Shown here piece after piece: positions 6,199-13,844 of a DNA stretch of 33,658 bases. Positions within the stretch are counted from its first letter, which is position 1; each line of letters opens with the position of its first letter. The stretch spans positions 1 through 33,658 of the forward strand of contig JACMPD010000015.1 of assembly GCA_014377675.1 (NCBI GenBank). The letters are read 5' to 3'. Source of the stretch: Taibaiella sp. (GTDB lineage: Bacteria > Bacteroidota > Bacteroidia > Chitinophagales > Chitinophagaceae). The translations under genes and the position numbers were made by a program. Under the pieces are notes generated by a model. It was not told the origin of the DNA, made no database searches, and worked only from the letters and a program-made list of their open reading frames with translations.

Positions 6199-6672
6199 AT
6201 GAAGAAACTGCTGTTGATAGCCGCTATGGCTCTGCCCCTGCTGGTAAACGCACAAATAAAAAATGTGAGCGAAATGATAACTCTCGGCGCCAGCACCTTT
6301 AACCAGGTTAGCGAGAAACTGACCAAGGGCAGCTGGAAGAAATATGAAGAGGGCAAAACTGATACCCAGAACTACGTGCGGTTCATACCTGTAAATATGA
6401 CAGCTGAGAACGCCGGAGATAACATAATGTGTTTTTATCAAAAGAAGGAAAAGCCGGTTATTTACCTTGTGTTGCAGACTATGACCAAAAAAACACCTGA
6501 TAAGCTATTAGCTGAAGCTAAAAAGCAGGGCTTTAAGTTTATGGCAAAAGAAAACTCGAACGGGCAGAAAAAAGATATTTATTCTAACGGCAAGTGCAAT
6601 ATTTCGGTTGTTGAAGGCCGGCAACGGCCCGGCGAGCCTTTGATCTATCTTTTTGGGGTTAAGTATCCGTAG
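6199..6672 (+). CDS. Hypothetical secreted protein
   Basis: 157 aa with signal peptide MKKLLLIAAMALPLLVNAQ; flanked by terminators. Confidence 0.7.
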   Translation: MKKLLLIAAMALPLLVNAQIKNVSEMITLGASTFNQVSEKLTKGSWKKYEEGKTDTQNYVRFIPVNMTAENAGDNIMCFYQKKEKPVIYLVLQTMTKKTPDKLLAEAKKQGFKFMAKENSNGQKKDIYSNGKCNISVVEGRQRPGEPLIYLFGVKYP

Positions 6673-6729: not shown

Positions 6730-6758
6730 GTGTAACGATGGCTTTCCCATCGTTACAC
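6730..6758. repeat. Perfect 12-bp inverted repeat (GTGTAACGATGG-CTTTC-CCATCGTTACAC), function unknown
   Basis: Exact reverse complement arms; no T tract follows. Confidence 0.6.
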
Positions 6759-6992
6759 AAGCCCAACCTTCACTTTAGGTACAACCTTATTTATGGTTTG
6801 GCTGGTATTTGATTGACTATTCTTTACCTAATGGCCGCCTATTTTATTTGTTGTCCTAAAATCCCAAATTATTTTCCTCCCCTCACATCCGTGTTTTCCT
6901 TTTATGCGTAGATATGCATACGGGTTGATGATTTTAAAACTAGCATTTACCTGTATTTCCTAATCATTTGTTAACGAAAATAACCGCTTTTT

Positions 6993-7021
6993 ACCGTTCG
7001 TGAAGTTTTACGACCGTTCGT
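6993..7021 (+). promoter_or_regulatory. Candidate LytTR-type response-regulator site: two ACCGTTCGT repeats 20 bp apart
   Basis: ACCGTTCGTGAAGTTTTACGACCGTTCGTGAAGTTTA; each 9-mer fits the LytTR consensus [TA][AC][CA]GTTN[AG][TG]. Confidence 0.55.
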
Positions 7022-7067
7022 GAAGTTTATTTGGCAACGGAAGGAGGGCGGCGGTATATTACATCAT

Positions 7068-7114
7068 ATTTCAGCATCAGGGTAGTGAAACAGAACAGGT
7101 GTGGATGCTGAAAT
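7068..7114 (+). repeat. 11-bp inverted repeat (ATTTCAGCATC ... GATGCTGAAAT), candidate leader hairpin
   Basis: Exact complementary arms, 25-nt loop. Confidence 0.45.
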
Positions 7115-7160
7115 TATCAAAGCTCTTAACAAAAAAAAACAAAAAATATTAGTATCCATT

Positions 7161-7189
7161 TGTAAGAGGCGCAATTACAGCCTCTTACA
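7161..7189 (+). repeat. 10-bp inverted repeat (TGTAAGAGGC-gcaattaca-GCCTCTTACA), candidate leader hairpin
   Basis: Exact complementary arms, 9-nt loop, no T tract immediately after. Confidence 0.5.
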
Positions 7190-7288
7190 TTTGGTGAACA
7201 AAACAATTTTTTTAAAAATACTTGTTTTTTAAATGACAAAAGGGCTATGCTGTATTTAATCTTGCGGCACTAAAAAAACTTTAAAACT

Positions 7289-7375
7289 ATGTTACTCTAT
7301 CTGTTGTATCTGGTTTGTATCATTTATTATGAAGGGTTCAAAAGACACAACCCACACGCCAGAAACGGCTTCTGA
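7289..7375 (+). CDS. Candidate 28-aa small membrane peptide MLLYLLYLVCIIYYEGFKRHNPHARNGF
   Basis: ATG 7289 to TGA 7373-7375; in-frame stop just upstream; hydrophobic N-terminal half, basic C-terminal tail; strong terminator 39 nt downstream. Confidence 0.4.
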   Translation: MLLYLLYLVCIIYYEGFKRHNPHARNGF

Positions 7376-7413
7376 AAACATATTCTAAATACAAAATAGC
7401 AGTATATAAAAAT

Positions 7414-7442
7414 CCTGCGCCTGCGGAAGGCGCAGGGTTTTT
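7414..7442 (+). terminator. Intrinsic terminator
   Basis: CCTGCGCCT-gcgga-AGGCGCAGG followed by GTTTTT. Confidence 0.85.
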
Positions 7443-7560
7443 GCTTTTGGGGGATTGGGCGTGTATTAGCTGGCATTATTGCCAGATTATATAAGTATGA
7501 ATGCATAGTTAACAAAGCTGTTTCATAGTAAATTTCTGTACCTTCACCTCAGCATTTACC

Positions 7561-8277
7561 ATGAAAATAGCACTTATAGGATACGGAAAAATGGGCCATG
7601 CGATAGAGCAGGCCGCGCTGAAAAGAGGACACAGTATTGTGTTGCGCATCAACTCGGCTAACCGGCACGAGCTCAATGCAGCAAGCCTTGAAGCAGCAGA
7701 TGTAGTTATTGAATTTACAGGCCCCGAAACAGCCAGAACGAATGTGCTGGCGTGTTTGGCGGCGGGCAAAAAAGTGGTGTGCGGCAGCACCGGCTGGAAT
7801 GAAGAACTACAGGAGGTGACCGCAACAGCTAAGGAGCGGCAGGGTACTTTCCTGTACGCGTCTAATTTCAGCATTGGGGTAAATATATTCTTTGAGGTGA
7901 ACAAACTATTGGCGACGCTGATAAACGGGCACGGTGCCTATGAGCCACAAATAGAAGAAACCCACCACCTGCAAAAAAAAGACGCGCCAAGCGGCACCGC
8001 TATAACACTCGCTGAACAAATACTGGAGCGGCTGCAAACTAAGAAAACATGGTCGCTGAACTTTTTGAACAATGCAGATATTTTGCCTGTGCTGGCGCAC
8101 AGAACCGAGGATGTACCTGGTACACATAAGGTAAAATACATCTCCGAAATTGATAGTATTGAAATAATACATACTGCACACAATAGGGATGGCTTCGCAT
8201 TAGGGGCAGTTCTCGCAGCGGAATTTCTGGAAAGCCGACAGGGTGTATTTACAATGCGCGATGTATTGTTCAGTTAA
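7561..8277 (+). CDS. dapB: 4-hydroxy-tetrahydrodipicolinate reductase
   Basis: MKIALIGYGKMGHAIE, EETHHLQKKDAPSGTA motif, typical C-terminus HTAHNRDGFALGAVLAAEFL. Confidence 0.93.
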   Translation: MKIALIGYGKMGHAIEQAALKRGHSIVLRINSANRHELNAASLEAADVVIEFTGPETARTNVLACLAAGKKVVCGSTGWNEELQEVTATAKERQGTFLYASNFSIGVNIFFEVNKLLATLINGHGAYEPQIEETHHLQKKDAPSGTAITLAEQILERLQTKKTWSLNFLNNADILPVLAHRTEDVPGTHKVKYISEIDSIEIIHTAHNRDGFALGAVLAAEFLESRQGVFTMRDVLFS

Positions 8278-12175: not shown

Positions 12176-13081
12176 TTATAGGGCATGTAGTAATGTCTCT
12201 AATGAATGATGTAATTCTTTGTATTTTTCAGGATTCTTGTCTTTAAGGCTCTGTAAATTTTTCAGCTTCCATAGTATAGCGGGAAACTGGCTAAAATCAT
12301 AAATATTCCAGTCTGGCATTAAGTTCTTAATGCTTAACAAAAAAAATTTGTCCTGATTATTTAAATTTCCATGAATAGACTTTATCAATTTTGTACGGGT
12401 GCTTTCAAACTCGTCTTAATTAAATTGTTGTGCACTCATGCCGGCGAACTGATTGTTGAACGCAGAACGCTGGTCTTGCAAATTAGGAGATAGTATTTCA
12501 TGGATAGGCCGTGCGCTACTTAACAGGCAAAAAATAAAGCCTGTTTTAACGGCCTCAGTAATTCCTTCATTTTCTAACAGGTATTTTATATCAAATAAAT
12601 CCCGGGGATGCTGGCGATCTAATGCCGCGCAAATTTTGCCACCATACAATTGCCCTACCGGAACAATTTTGATAGCGCAAAAGGCTTCAAATTCCATTTG
12701 TGCATTATCGCATAAAACCATACTTAATGGTTGTTCGATTGTTCCCCGGTTGATTGCACTAACCTCAAGTTTAATGTCAACCCCGTTAGCGGAAACGAAT
12801 AATTTCAAAATATCTTCACGGTGTGATATGCGTGCATTCGGTATTACTTTTTGGGTATTTGCTTTAATTCGCTCCAGGGCATCAGAGATGTTTGCGAGTG
12901 AAGTTACCCGGTCCTCAACCGGCAGATAAGTTACATCTATATCGATTGATAAACGAGGCATATTGCGTACGAAAAGGTTAATTGCGGTACCGCCATGAAG
13001 CGCAAAACAATTTTCTTTAGCTACTTCTGGTAGCACACTCAACAGCAATGCAACTTGCTTTTTATATGCCGGTTTTTCCAT
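12176..13081 (-). pseudogene. AbiEii/AbiGii-family nucleotidyltransferase toxin interrupted by an in-frame TAA at 12416-12418
   Basis: 221-aa ORF (MEKPAYKKQVALLLSVLPEVAKENCFALHGGTAINLF..., LSIDIDVTYLP) followed in the same frame by DEFESTRTKLIKSIHGNLNNQDKFFLLSIKNLMPDWNIYDFSQFPAILWKLKNLQ, recalled as a normal AbiEii C-terminus. Confidence 0.75.
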
Positions 13082-13844
13082 ATTCGTCTAACTCTTTAGG
13101 GACTGTTATTTTATATCTGGCGATATAAACGCCTTTTTTTACTAAACTTCTTTTTCCATCTCCTAAATCAACTTTGGCCAAGTTTATATATCTAAACCAA
13201 TCATGTCCGGTTTTCTCTGCCATATATAGAAACAACCGCTTGACTTTAACCGAATGGCAATTTTCAAGCAATTCCTGTACCTGCCCTGGTATAAGATTAT
13301 TTAAGCCTTCCATCAGTTGGTAGCATTCCAATAAATCCTGATGAGCGGGCGCCAAATACAAACATTCCATAATTGCCCGGGCTGCAGCAGATATTTGTAT
13401 GTAAATATTTTTAACATTGATCGTCGTAAGGCCAGAGTTGCCTTGCAGAAAAGATGTAGGATGGTATTCAATGTCAATGCCCCAGTTGTGTTTTTTCAGC
13501 CAGGTGGGAATCATGTCGTCATCGTTTCCAAAAAGGATGACTTTCTTCGGCGAAAATTCTAAATAATGGGCTTTACCCAGCAAAGACAAAGCGGTTTTGC
13601 CGCCAGGGTGAACTTTTGACGATGCCTGGTTTTGCAGGGCATATATTGCCCCTTCATAACCTACTTCATCTCCAGACCGAACCATTGCCCCGTTACCGAT
13701 TGATTCAAGCCAGCCGCTGTTCCTGTATCTTTTCTGAAGATTTGAATCATAGCCCAGCCGGGTAAGCCATGCTGACTGAAACACGATACCATAGGGATAA
13801 GCTGAAAGTAGCTGGTTTATTTTTGTTGTTTTTTGAGTACCCAT
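13062..13844 (-). CDS. Type IV toxin-antitoxin system AbiEi-family antitoxin
   Basis: 260 aa, N-terminal winged-helix-like region, overlaps the AbiEii start by 20 nt as in AbiE operons. Confidence 0.75.
   Translation of the reverse strand: MGTQKTTKINQLLSAYPYGIVFQSAWLTRLGYDSNLQKRYRNSGWLESIGNGAMVRSGDEVGYEGAIYALQNQASSKVHPGGKTALSLLGKAHYLEFSPKKVILFGNDDDMIPTWLKKHNWGIDIEYHPTSFLQGNSGLTTINVKNIYIQISAAARAIMECLYLAPAHQDLLECYQLMEGLNNLIPGQVQELLENCHSVKVKRLFLYMAEKTGHDWFRYINLAKVDLGDGKRSLVKKGVYIARYKITVPKELDEYGKTGI

Follow-up and report, generated by a model that had tools for sequence, protein, structure and literature searches.

What is the region just upstream of dapB in this Taibaiella genome, where some 850 nucleotides are laid out like a regulated transcription unit? 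The window (the whole stretch of DNA analyzed, 33,658 nt) is contig C32 of genome G000, a draft metagenome assembly of 306 contigs that is 84.55% complete, and the genus comparison set comprised 11 genomes. The locus is flanked by an ORF at 6199-6672 on one side and dapB at 7561-8277 on the other, and inspection of the ORFs agrees with a sequence-only reading that 6.7-7.55 kb holds no convincing long ORF. The same reading took the locus for a complete small-peptide unit. The evidence set out below points instead to a surface-protein operon under LytTR control that has probably suffered a deletion and kept its regulatory ends (Table 1). Elsewhere in the window, GTGTAACGATGG/CCATCGTTACAC at 6730-6758 form an inverted repeat of 12 nt that pairs perfectly around a 5-nt loop and lacks a T run, and an AbiEi/AbiEii type IV toxin-antitoxin gene pair occupies 12416-13844 on the minus strand.

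Table 1. Features of the locus in window coordinates
Feature	Position	Strand	Details
Upstream part of duplicated 5' module	6861-6989	+	91% identity to G000:C131; sharp left boundary at about 6861
LytTR-type operator	6993-7028	+	9-bp boxes ACCGTTCGT at 6993-7001 and 7013-7021, within a 16-nt direct repeat
Promoter, Bacteroidota-type	7026-7063	+	TTTATTTGG at 7026-7034; -7 element TATATTACA at 7055-7063
Leader hairpin P1	7069-7113	+	TTTCAGCATC (7069-7078) pairs with GATGCTGAAA (7104-7113)
Leader hairpin P2	7156-7194	+	TGTAAGAGGC (7161-7170) pairs with GCCTCTTACA (7180-7189), extended by CCA/TGG
28-aa ORF	7289-7375	+	MLLYLLYLVCIIYYEGFKRHNPHARNGF; not in the reading frame of the conserved peptide
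MLVTIC peptide gene relic	7302-7388	+	CCIWFVSFIMKGSKDTTHTPETASENIF, then stop (7386-7388); ATG at 7289 out of frame
Intrinsic terminator	7414-7442	+	9-pair stem at 7414-7436, then T's

A LytTR-Type Operator Recurring Across the Genus

Two identical copies of the 16-nt repeat ACCGTTCGTGAAGTTT (6993-7008 and 7013-7028) stand 20 nt apart from start to start, and the two ACCGTTCGT boxes within them, 11 bp apart, fit the canonical LytTR arrangement, in which 9-bp direct repeats are spaced by 10-13 bp (PMC11347149). The exact double box CCGTTCRT-N12-CCGTTCRT occurs at 64 sites in 10 of the 11 genus genomes, against none in the 11 for the reversed pattern that served as control; outside the genus it appears in only three genomes of a family sample, at one or two sites each. 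Alignment of 87 sites yields the consensus TACCGTTCGTGAAgtttt.CGACCGTTCGTgaagTTT.TTTGg; in 69 of these sites a TA..TT (-7) element starts 60 or 61 nt beyond the first box. The LytTR-like repeats proposed from the sequence alone are thus borne out, both by recurrence across genomes and by their fixed distance upstream of a promoter.

The box CCGTTCGT is identical to bases 1-8 of the nine-base AlgR box consensus of Pseudomonas aeruginosa, CCGTTCGTC (PMC4064291). AgrA P2/P3 of Staphylococcus aureus (PMC4227749) likewise places a pair of 9-bp direct repeats, offset by about two helical turns, ahead of a promoter, with the promoter-proximal box centered at about -60 versus about 50 nt before the likely start here. 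Unlike AlgR and AgrA promoters, the sites in this genus are combined with Bacteroidota promoter elements, and their targets are mainly type IX secretion system (T9SS) surface proteins. By this resemblance the operator would be bound by a LytTR protein. From the promoter elements in the window, transcription would start near 7068.

The 5' module is duplicated on contig C131 of the same genome, which breaks off after the promoter and leader. Identity between the copies is 91% in the upstream segment, 100% (45/45) from the boxes to TTTGG, 75% in the spacer, and 97% (37/38) over the -7 element and the start of P1. The upstream segment also holds a TTTGTTAA box (6974-6981). At about a third of LytTR sites such a box precedes the first LytTR box by some 15-25 nt, and it may mark another protein site or a promoter element.

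A Structured Leader and a Terminator

Folding of the RNA from 7067 to 7450 gives -104.3 kcal/mol, against -73.5 +/- 5.4 for shuffled sequences (z -5.7). The inverted repeats that had been noted at 7068-7114 and 7161-7189 are confirmed, their pairs being located as P1 and P2, and the strong intrinsic terminator called at 7414-7442 likewise stands as a stem followed by T's. The same terminator is present at G000:C14, and a variant form precedes dapB in G003:C411. In G002:C368, P2 is kept with one pair changed from A-T to G-C and a loop 35 nt longer, and the P1 position holds a hairpin with a different stem, seen by inspection and absent from the minimum-energy fold. Given that only these two sequences exist, covariation in P1 and P2 is weak. 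A covariance-model search with P2 found no third copy in the 11 genomes, nor was a second complete copy of the leader-to-terminator RNA found there. In Rfam 15, no family reaches its cut-off for the window RNA, and there is no riboswitch match. The sequence GCTCTTAACAA at 7122-7132 is similar to the boxA of antitermination systems; the match is short and the candidate was dropped.

A Conserved Peptide Family and Its Broken Copy

The 3' part of the locus has a paralogue of 85% identity at G000:C14, encoding MLVTICCIWFISFLLRGSKDNNNAPETAYENIF. This peptide belongs to what is here named the MLVTIC family, small hydrophobic-basic peptides beginning MLVTIC(F/C/I)I... and lying behind T9SS genes. Searches by tblastn and codon pattern recovered five more intact members (G001:C144, G003:C327, G003:C411, G008:C24, and G008:C45), giving six in all, C14 plus five loci in three relatives. 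Over codons 2-10 of these six, the MLVTIC frame has 70 synonymous changes among 103 codon differences, as opposed to only 13/107 and 10/104 in the other two frames; therefore, the family is really coding. A codon-pattern scan of 84,980 species returned MLVTIC matches only in the genus, the rest arising by chance; matches antisense to YicC proved spurious.

The window copy, matched to the intact C14 paralogue at a tblastn E of 1e-11, contains no intact ORF starting ML(V/I)TIC. A net loss of 2 nt after ATGTTA shifts its ATG out of the MLVTIC frame, and this ATG therefore reads in the frame of the 28-aa ORF. Relative to C14, 9 of 12 codon changes are nonsynonymous, the pattern that decay would give, although a single comparison is weak alone. 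Taken by its sequence, the window copy looks like a pseudogene.

The 28-aa ORF had been advanced as the product of the locus, with a type I toxin such as tisB as its model. Toxin mRNAs of this type do carry a short hydrophobic ORF after a structured leader, as does the window, and the hydrophobic segment with its basic tail suits such a role or one in signaling. Unlike in tisB, however, the ORF lies in a frame that is not conserved: C14, the closest paralogue, lacks its start codon, the coding signal sits in another frame, and the related peptides form a family behind large T9SS genes. The ORF has no Pfam or NCBIfam match, and as signs of an antisense RNA antitoxin the minus strand offers only promoter-like hexamers, at chance level. 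Neither the proposal of the 28-aa peptide as product nor its likening to a toxin finds support in these observations, and such a product is very improbable.

A Probable Loss of a Surface-Protein Gene

In five of the six intact members the peptide gene follows a T9SS tail; the contig of the sixth (G003:C327) starts inside the intergenic hairpin. At G008:C24 the gene for a Big_2-repeat protein of 2099 aa, which has a T9SS tail, stops 36 nt short of the peptide ATG, and the contigs G000:C14, G001:C144, and G008:C45 begin inside the end of a similar T9SS-type protein. The order at G003:C411 is T9SS tail, hairpin, peptide, terminator, dapB; that in the window is promoter, leader, broken peptide, terminator, dapB, so that the two have the dapB neighbor in common. 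A T9SS sorting-domain gene, which precedes the same peptide family at G003:C411 and G008:C24, is absent from the window. In relation to T9SS type A cargo operons (Por_Secre_tail, TIGR04183/PF18962), the 3' module of the window shares homology with the DNA found after such genes in relatives, the dapB-linked copy in G003 included, but the cargo gene itself is missing. The claim of a regulated unit holds as far as operator, structured leader, terminator, and the involvement of a small-peptide gene are concerned; it fails as to completeness, the large gene seemingly having been lost.

In the intact form, a LytTR response regulator bound to the repeat pair immediately ahead of the promoter would switch on transcription of the structured leader, followed by a large surface protein exported by the T9SS and, last, the MLVTIC peptide, with the transcript ending at the terminator. 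In the dapB-linked copy, the large gene would have been lost and the peptide gene thrown out of frame, with the operator and promoter, both leader hairpins, and the terminator retained. Leader and 3' module would on this account have been joined by deletion. The unit is plausibly still transcribed under LytTR control, and its transcript, if made, would fold into a structured RNA some 370 nt long that ends before dapB and encodes no conserved product. In favor of a scar are the recurrent operator with its fixed promoter spacing, the peptide family and its place behind T9SS genes, the order at G003:C411, the broken frame with its codon changes, and the near-identity to C131 outside the spacer; in addition, all six LytTR-box products tested elsewhere carry TIGR04183. 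Against it, no contig examined unites LytTR boxes, a T9SS gene, and an MLVTIC peptide, and at G008:C24, the only T9SS-peptide pair that is complete, LytTR boxes are lacking upstream. Nor was the exact junction that a deletion would have left at 7200-7268 found elsewhere.

LytTR promoters or 3' modules also lie at contig ends in G009:C57 and G009:C92 (L098 and L100) and in G003:C411 and C327, the copies being identical over as much as 149 nt, which suggests repeated, recombining surface-protein operons. The sharp left boundaries at G000:C131 and G009:C57/C92 had raised the possibility of a mobile element, rejected because no end in the window matches and because the contig ends better fit repeated surface-protein operons. 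C131 and C14 may represent opposite ends of a single intact copy; given that both stop at contig edges, this linkage is only a guess.

Weighing Other Explanations

Could the transcript itself, from P1 through P2 to the terminator, be a functional LytTR-controlled noncoding RNA, with the peptide relic incidental? The conservation of operator, promoter, and 5' RNA segment between two copies, the strength of the fold, and the existence of other LytTR-box promoters in the genus that drive RNAs without long ORFs all speak for it. Set against this are the want of a complete second copy among the 11 genomes, a P1/P2 comparison of two sequences with a single compensatory pair, and the homology of the 3' half to a protein-coding 3' module, and the noncoding reading is accordingly judged unlikely. 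Misassembly would account for the locus differently, paralogous copies having been misjoined and the large gene dropped from the contig. A draft metagenome in 306 contigs with related modules at contig ends invites this suspicion, but the join region 7200-7268 is unique sequence, substitutions accompany the frame-breaking change, and the dapB synteny is common to G003, leaving an artefact quite improbable.

The position of the locus directly upstream of dapB, with a terminator between, might also indicate a leader or attenuator regulating that gene. This is scarcely credible: G000:C14 has the peptide and terminator but no dapB, the region upstream of dapB has different neighbors in eight other genomes, such a module being absent from 8 of the 10 genomes readable there, and riboswitch matches are lacking in Rfam 15. 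On synteny, attenuation of dapB was rejected. The deletion scar of a surface-protein operon remains the probable explanation.

A Proposed Regulon and Its Candidate Regulator

What follows the LytTR sites varies: large secreted proteins, NHL-repeat proteins, and lipoproteins, but also tiny ORFs and RNAs that contain no long ORF. The six TIGR04183 products, all on intact contigs, include proteins of 1605, 2321, and 2285 aa; other LytTR-box products, for example NHL proteins of about 390 aa, have no visible T9SS tail. A full-text literature search, judged by titles and abstracts, turned up no report of LytTR control of T9SS genes.

Genomes of the genus contain 3-15 LytTR domains each. The best LytTR protein in most of them is a 245-aa response regulator within a cluster ordered LiaF-like protein, DUF4288, LytS-type kinase, LytTR response regulator, and RRM_1 RNA-binding protein (L294, G005:C10; L295, G007:C76; L296, G006:C23; L297, G003:C100; L298, G002:C17; L299, G000:C234; L300, G009:C15). 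Convergent to the RRM gene, a LytTR-box promoter would drive a short terminated RNA in G000, G002, G003, G005, G006, and G007, and the same promoter is present with one mismatch in G009; in G004 the RNA is not adjacent to the regulator. Judged by neighborhood only, the LytS/LytTR pair at G000:C234 is the best candidate for regulating the window operator. Given that the RRM proteins RbpB and FopS partner with small RNAs in Bacteroides (PMC11697453), the LytTR/RRM/RNA arrangement is suggestive, by analogy, of a circuit and offers a lead. The earlier comparison with agr is useful as an analogy of operator layout and not beyond: as in the agr locus with its RNAIII, the locus has a LytTR operator, and another part of the genome places a LytTR regulator gene near a LytTR-box RNA gene, but no AgrB/AgrD-like genes were seen beside the locus, and the RNA sequence is unrelated to any Rfam family.

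Several further products were noted after LytTR boxes. An RNA of about 170 nt just after the boxes at L007, L008, L010, L026, and L046 (five species, 81% mean column identity) has a stem GATACCTAAA/TTTAGGTGTC, invariant TACAAGGG/CCCTTGTA predicted to form a pseudoknot, and a terminator at its end; it has no Rfam match to E 1, and diverged forms occur in G000, G002, and G009. Purine-rich transcripts without long ORFs, bearing TGAGTG or GTGAAAGAG-like motifs, follow the boxes at L017, L018, L020, L023, and L031 and are possibly protein-binding RNAs. Tiny ORFs right after the promoters at L024, L027, L096, and L111, in four genomes, encode single-span peptides like MKHLTVAVSVFLLLSYFIIFVINLYFIFKYLDFI, and 31-aa peptides ending RxQF are similarly placed at L017, L023, and L090; one peptide of each kind was searched, without a convincing Pfam or NCBIfam match.

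Implications

A single genus-wide LytS/LytTR regulon, with the RRM and RNA genes alongside, may coordinate T9SS proteins, tiny membrane peptides, and structured RNAs, the leader RNA of the window being an active member; this broader proposal is tentative and at present more doubtful than not. Taken alone, the locus is a seemingly decayed target site of modest value, and its worth lies in the regulon and the peptide family to which it leads. The operator identifies a coherent regulon, nearly confined to the genus, in which type IX secreted surface proteins are tied to a LytTR system, and with it a directly testable candidate LytTR/RRM/RNA circuit.
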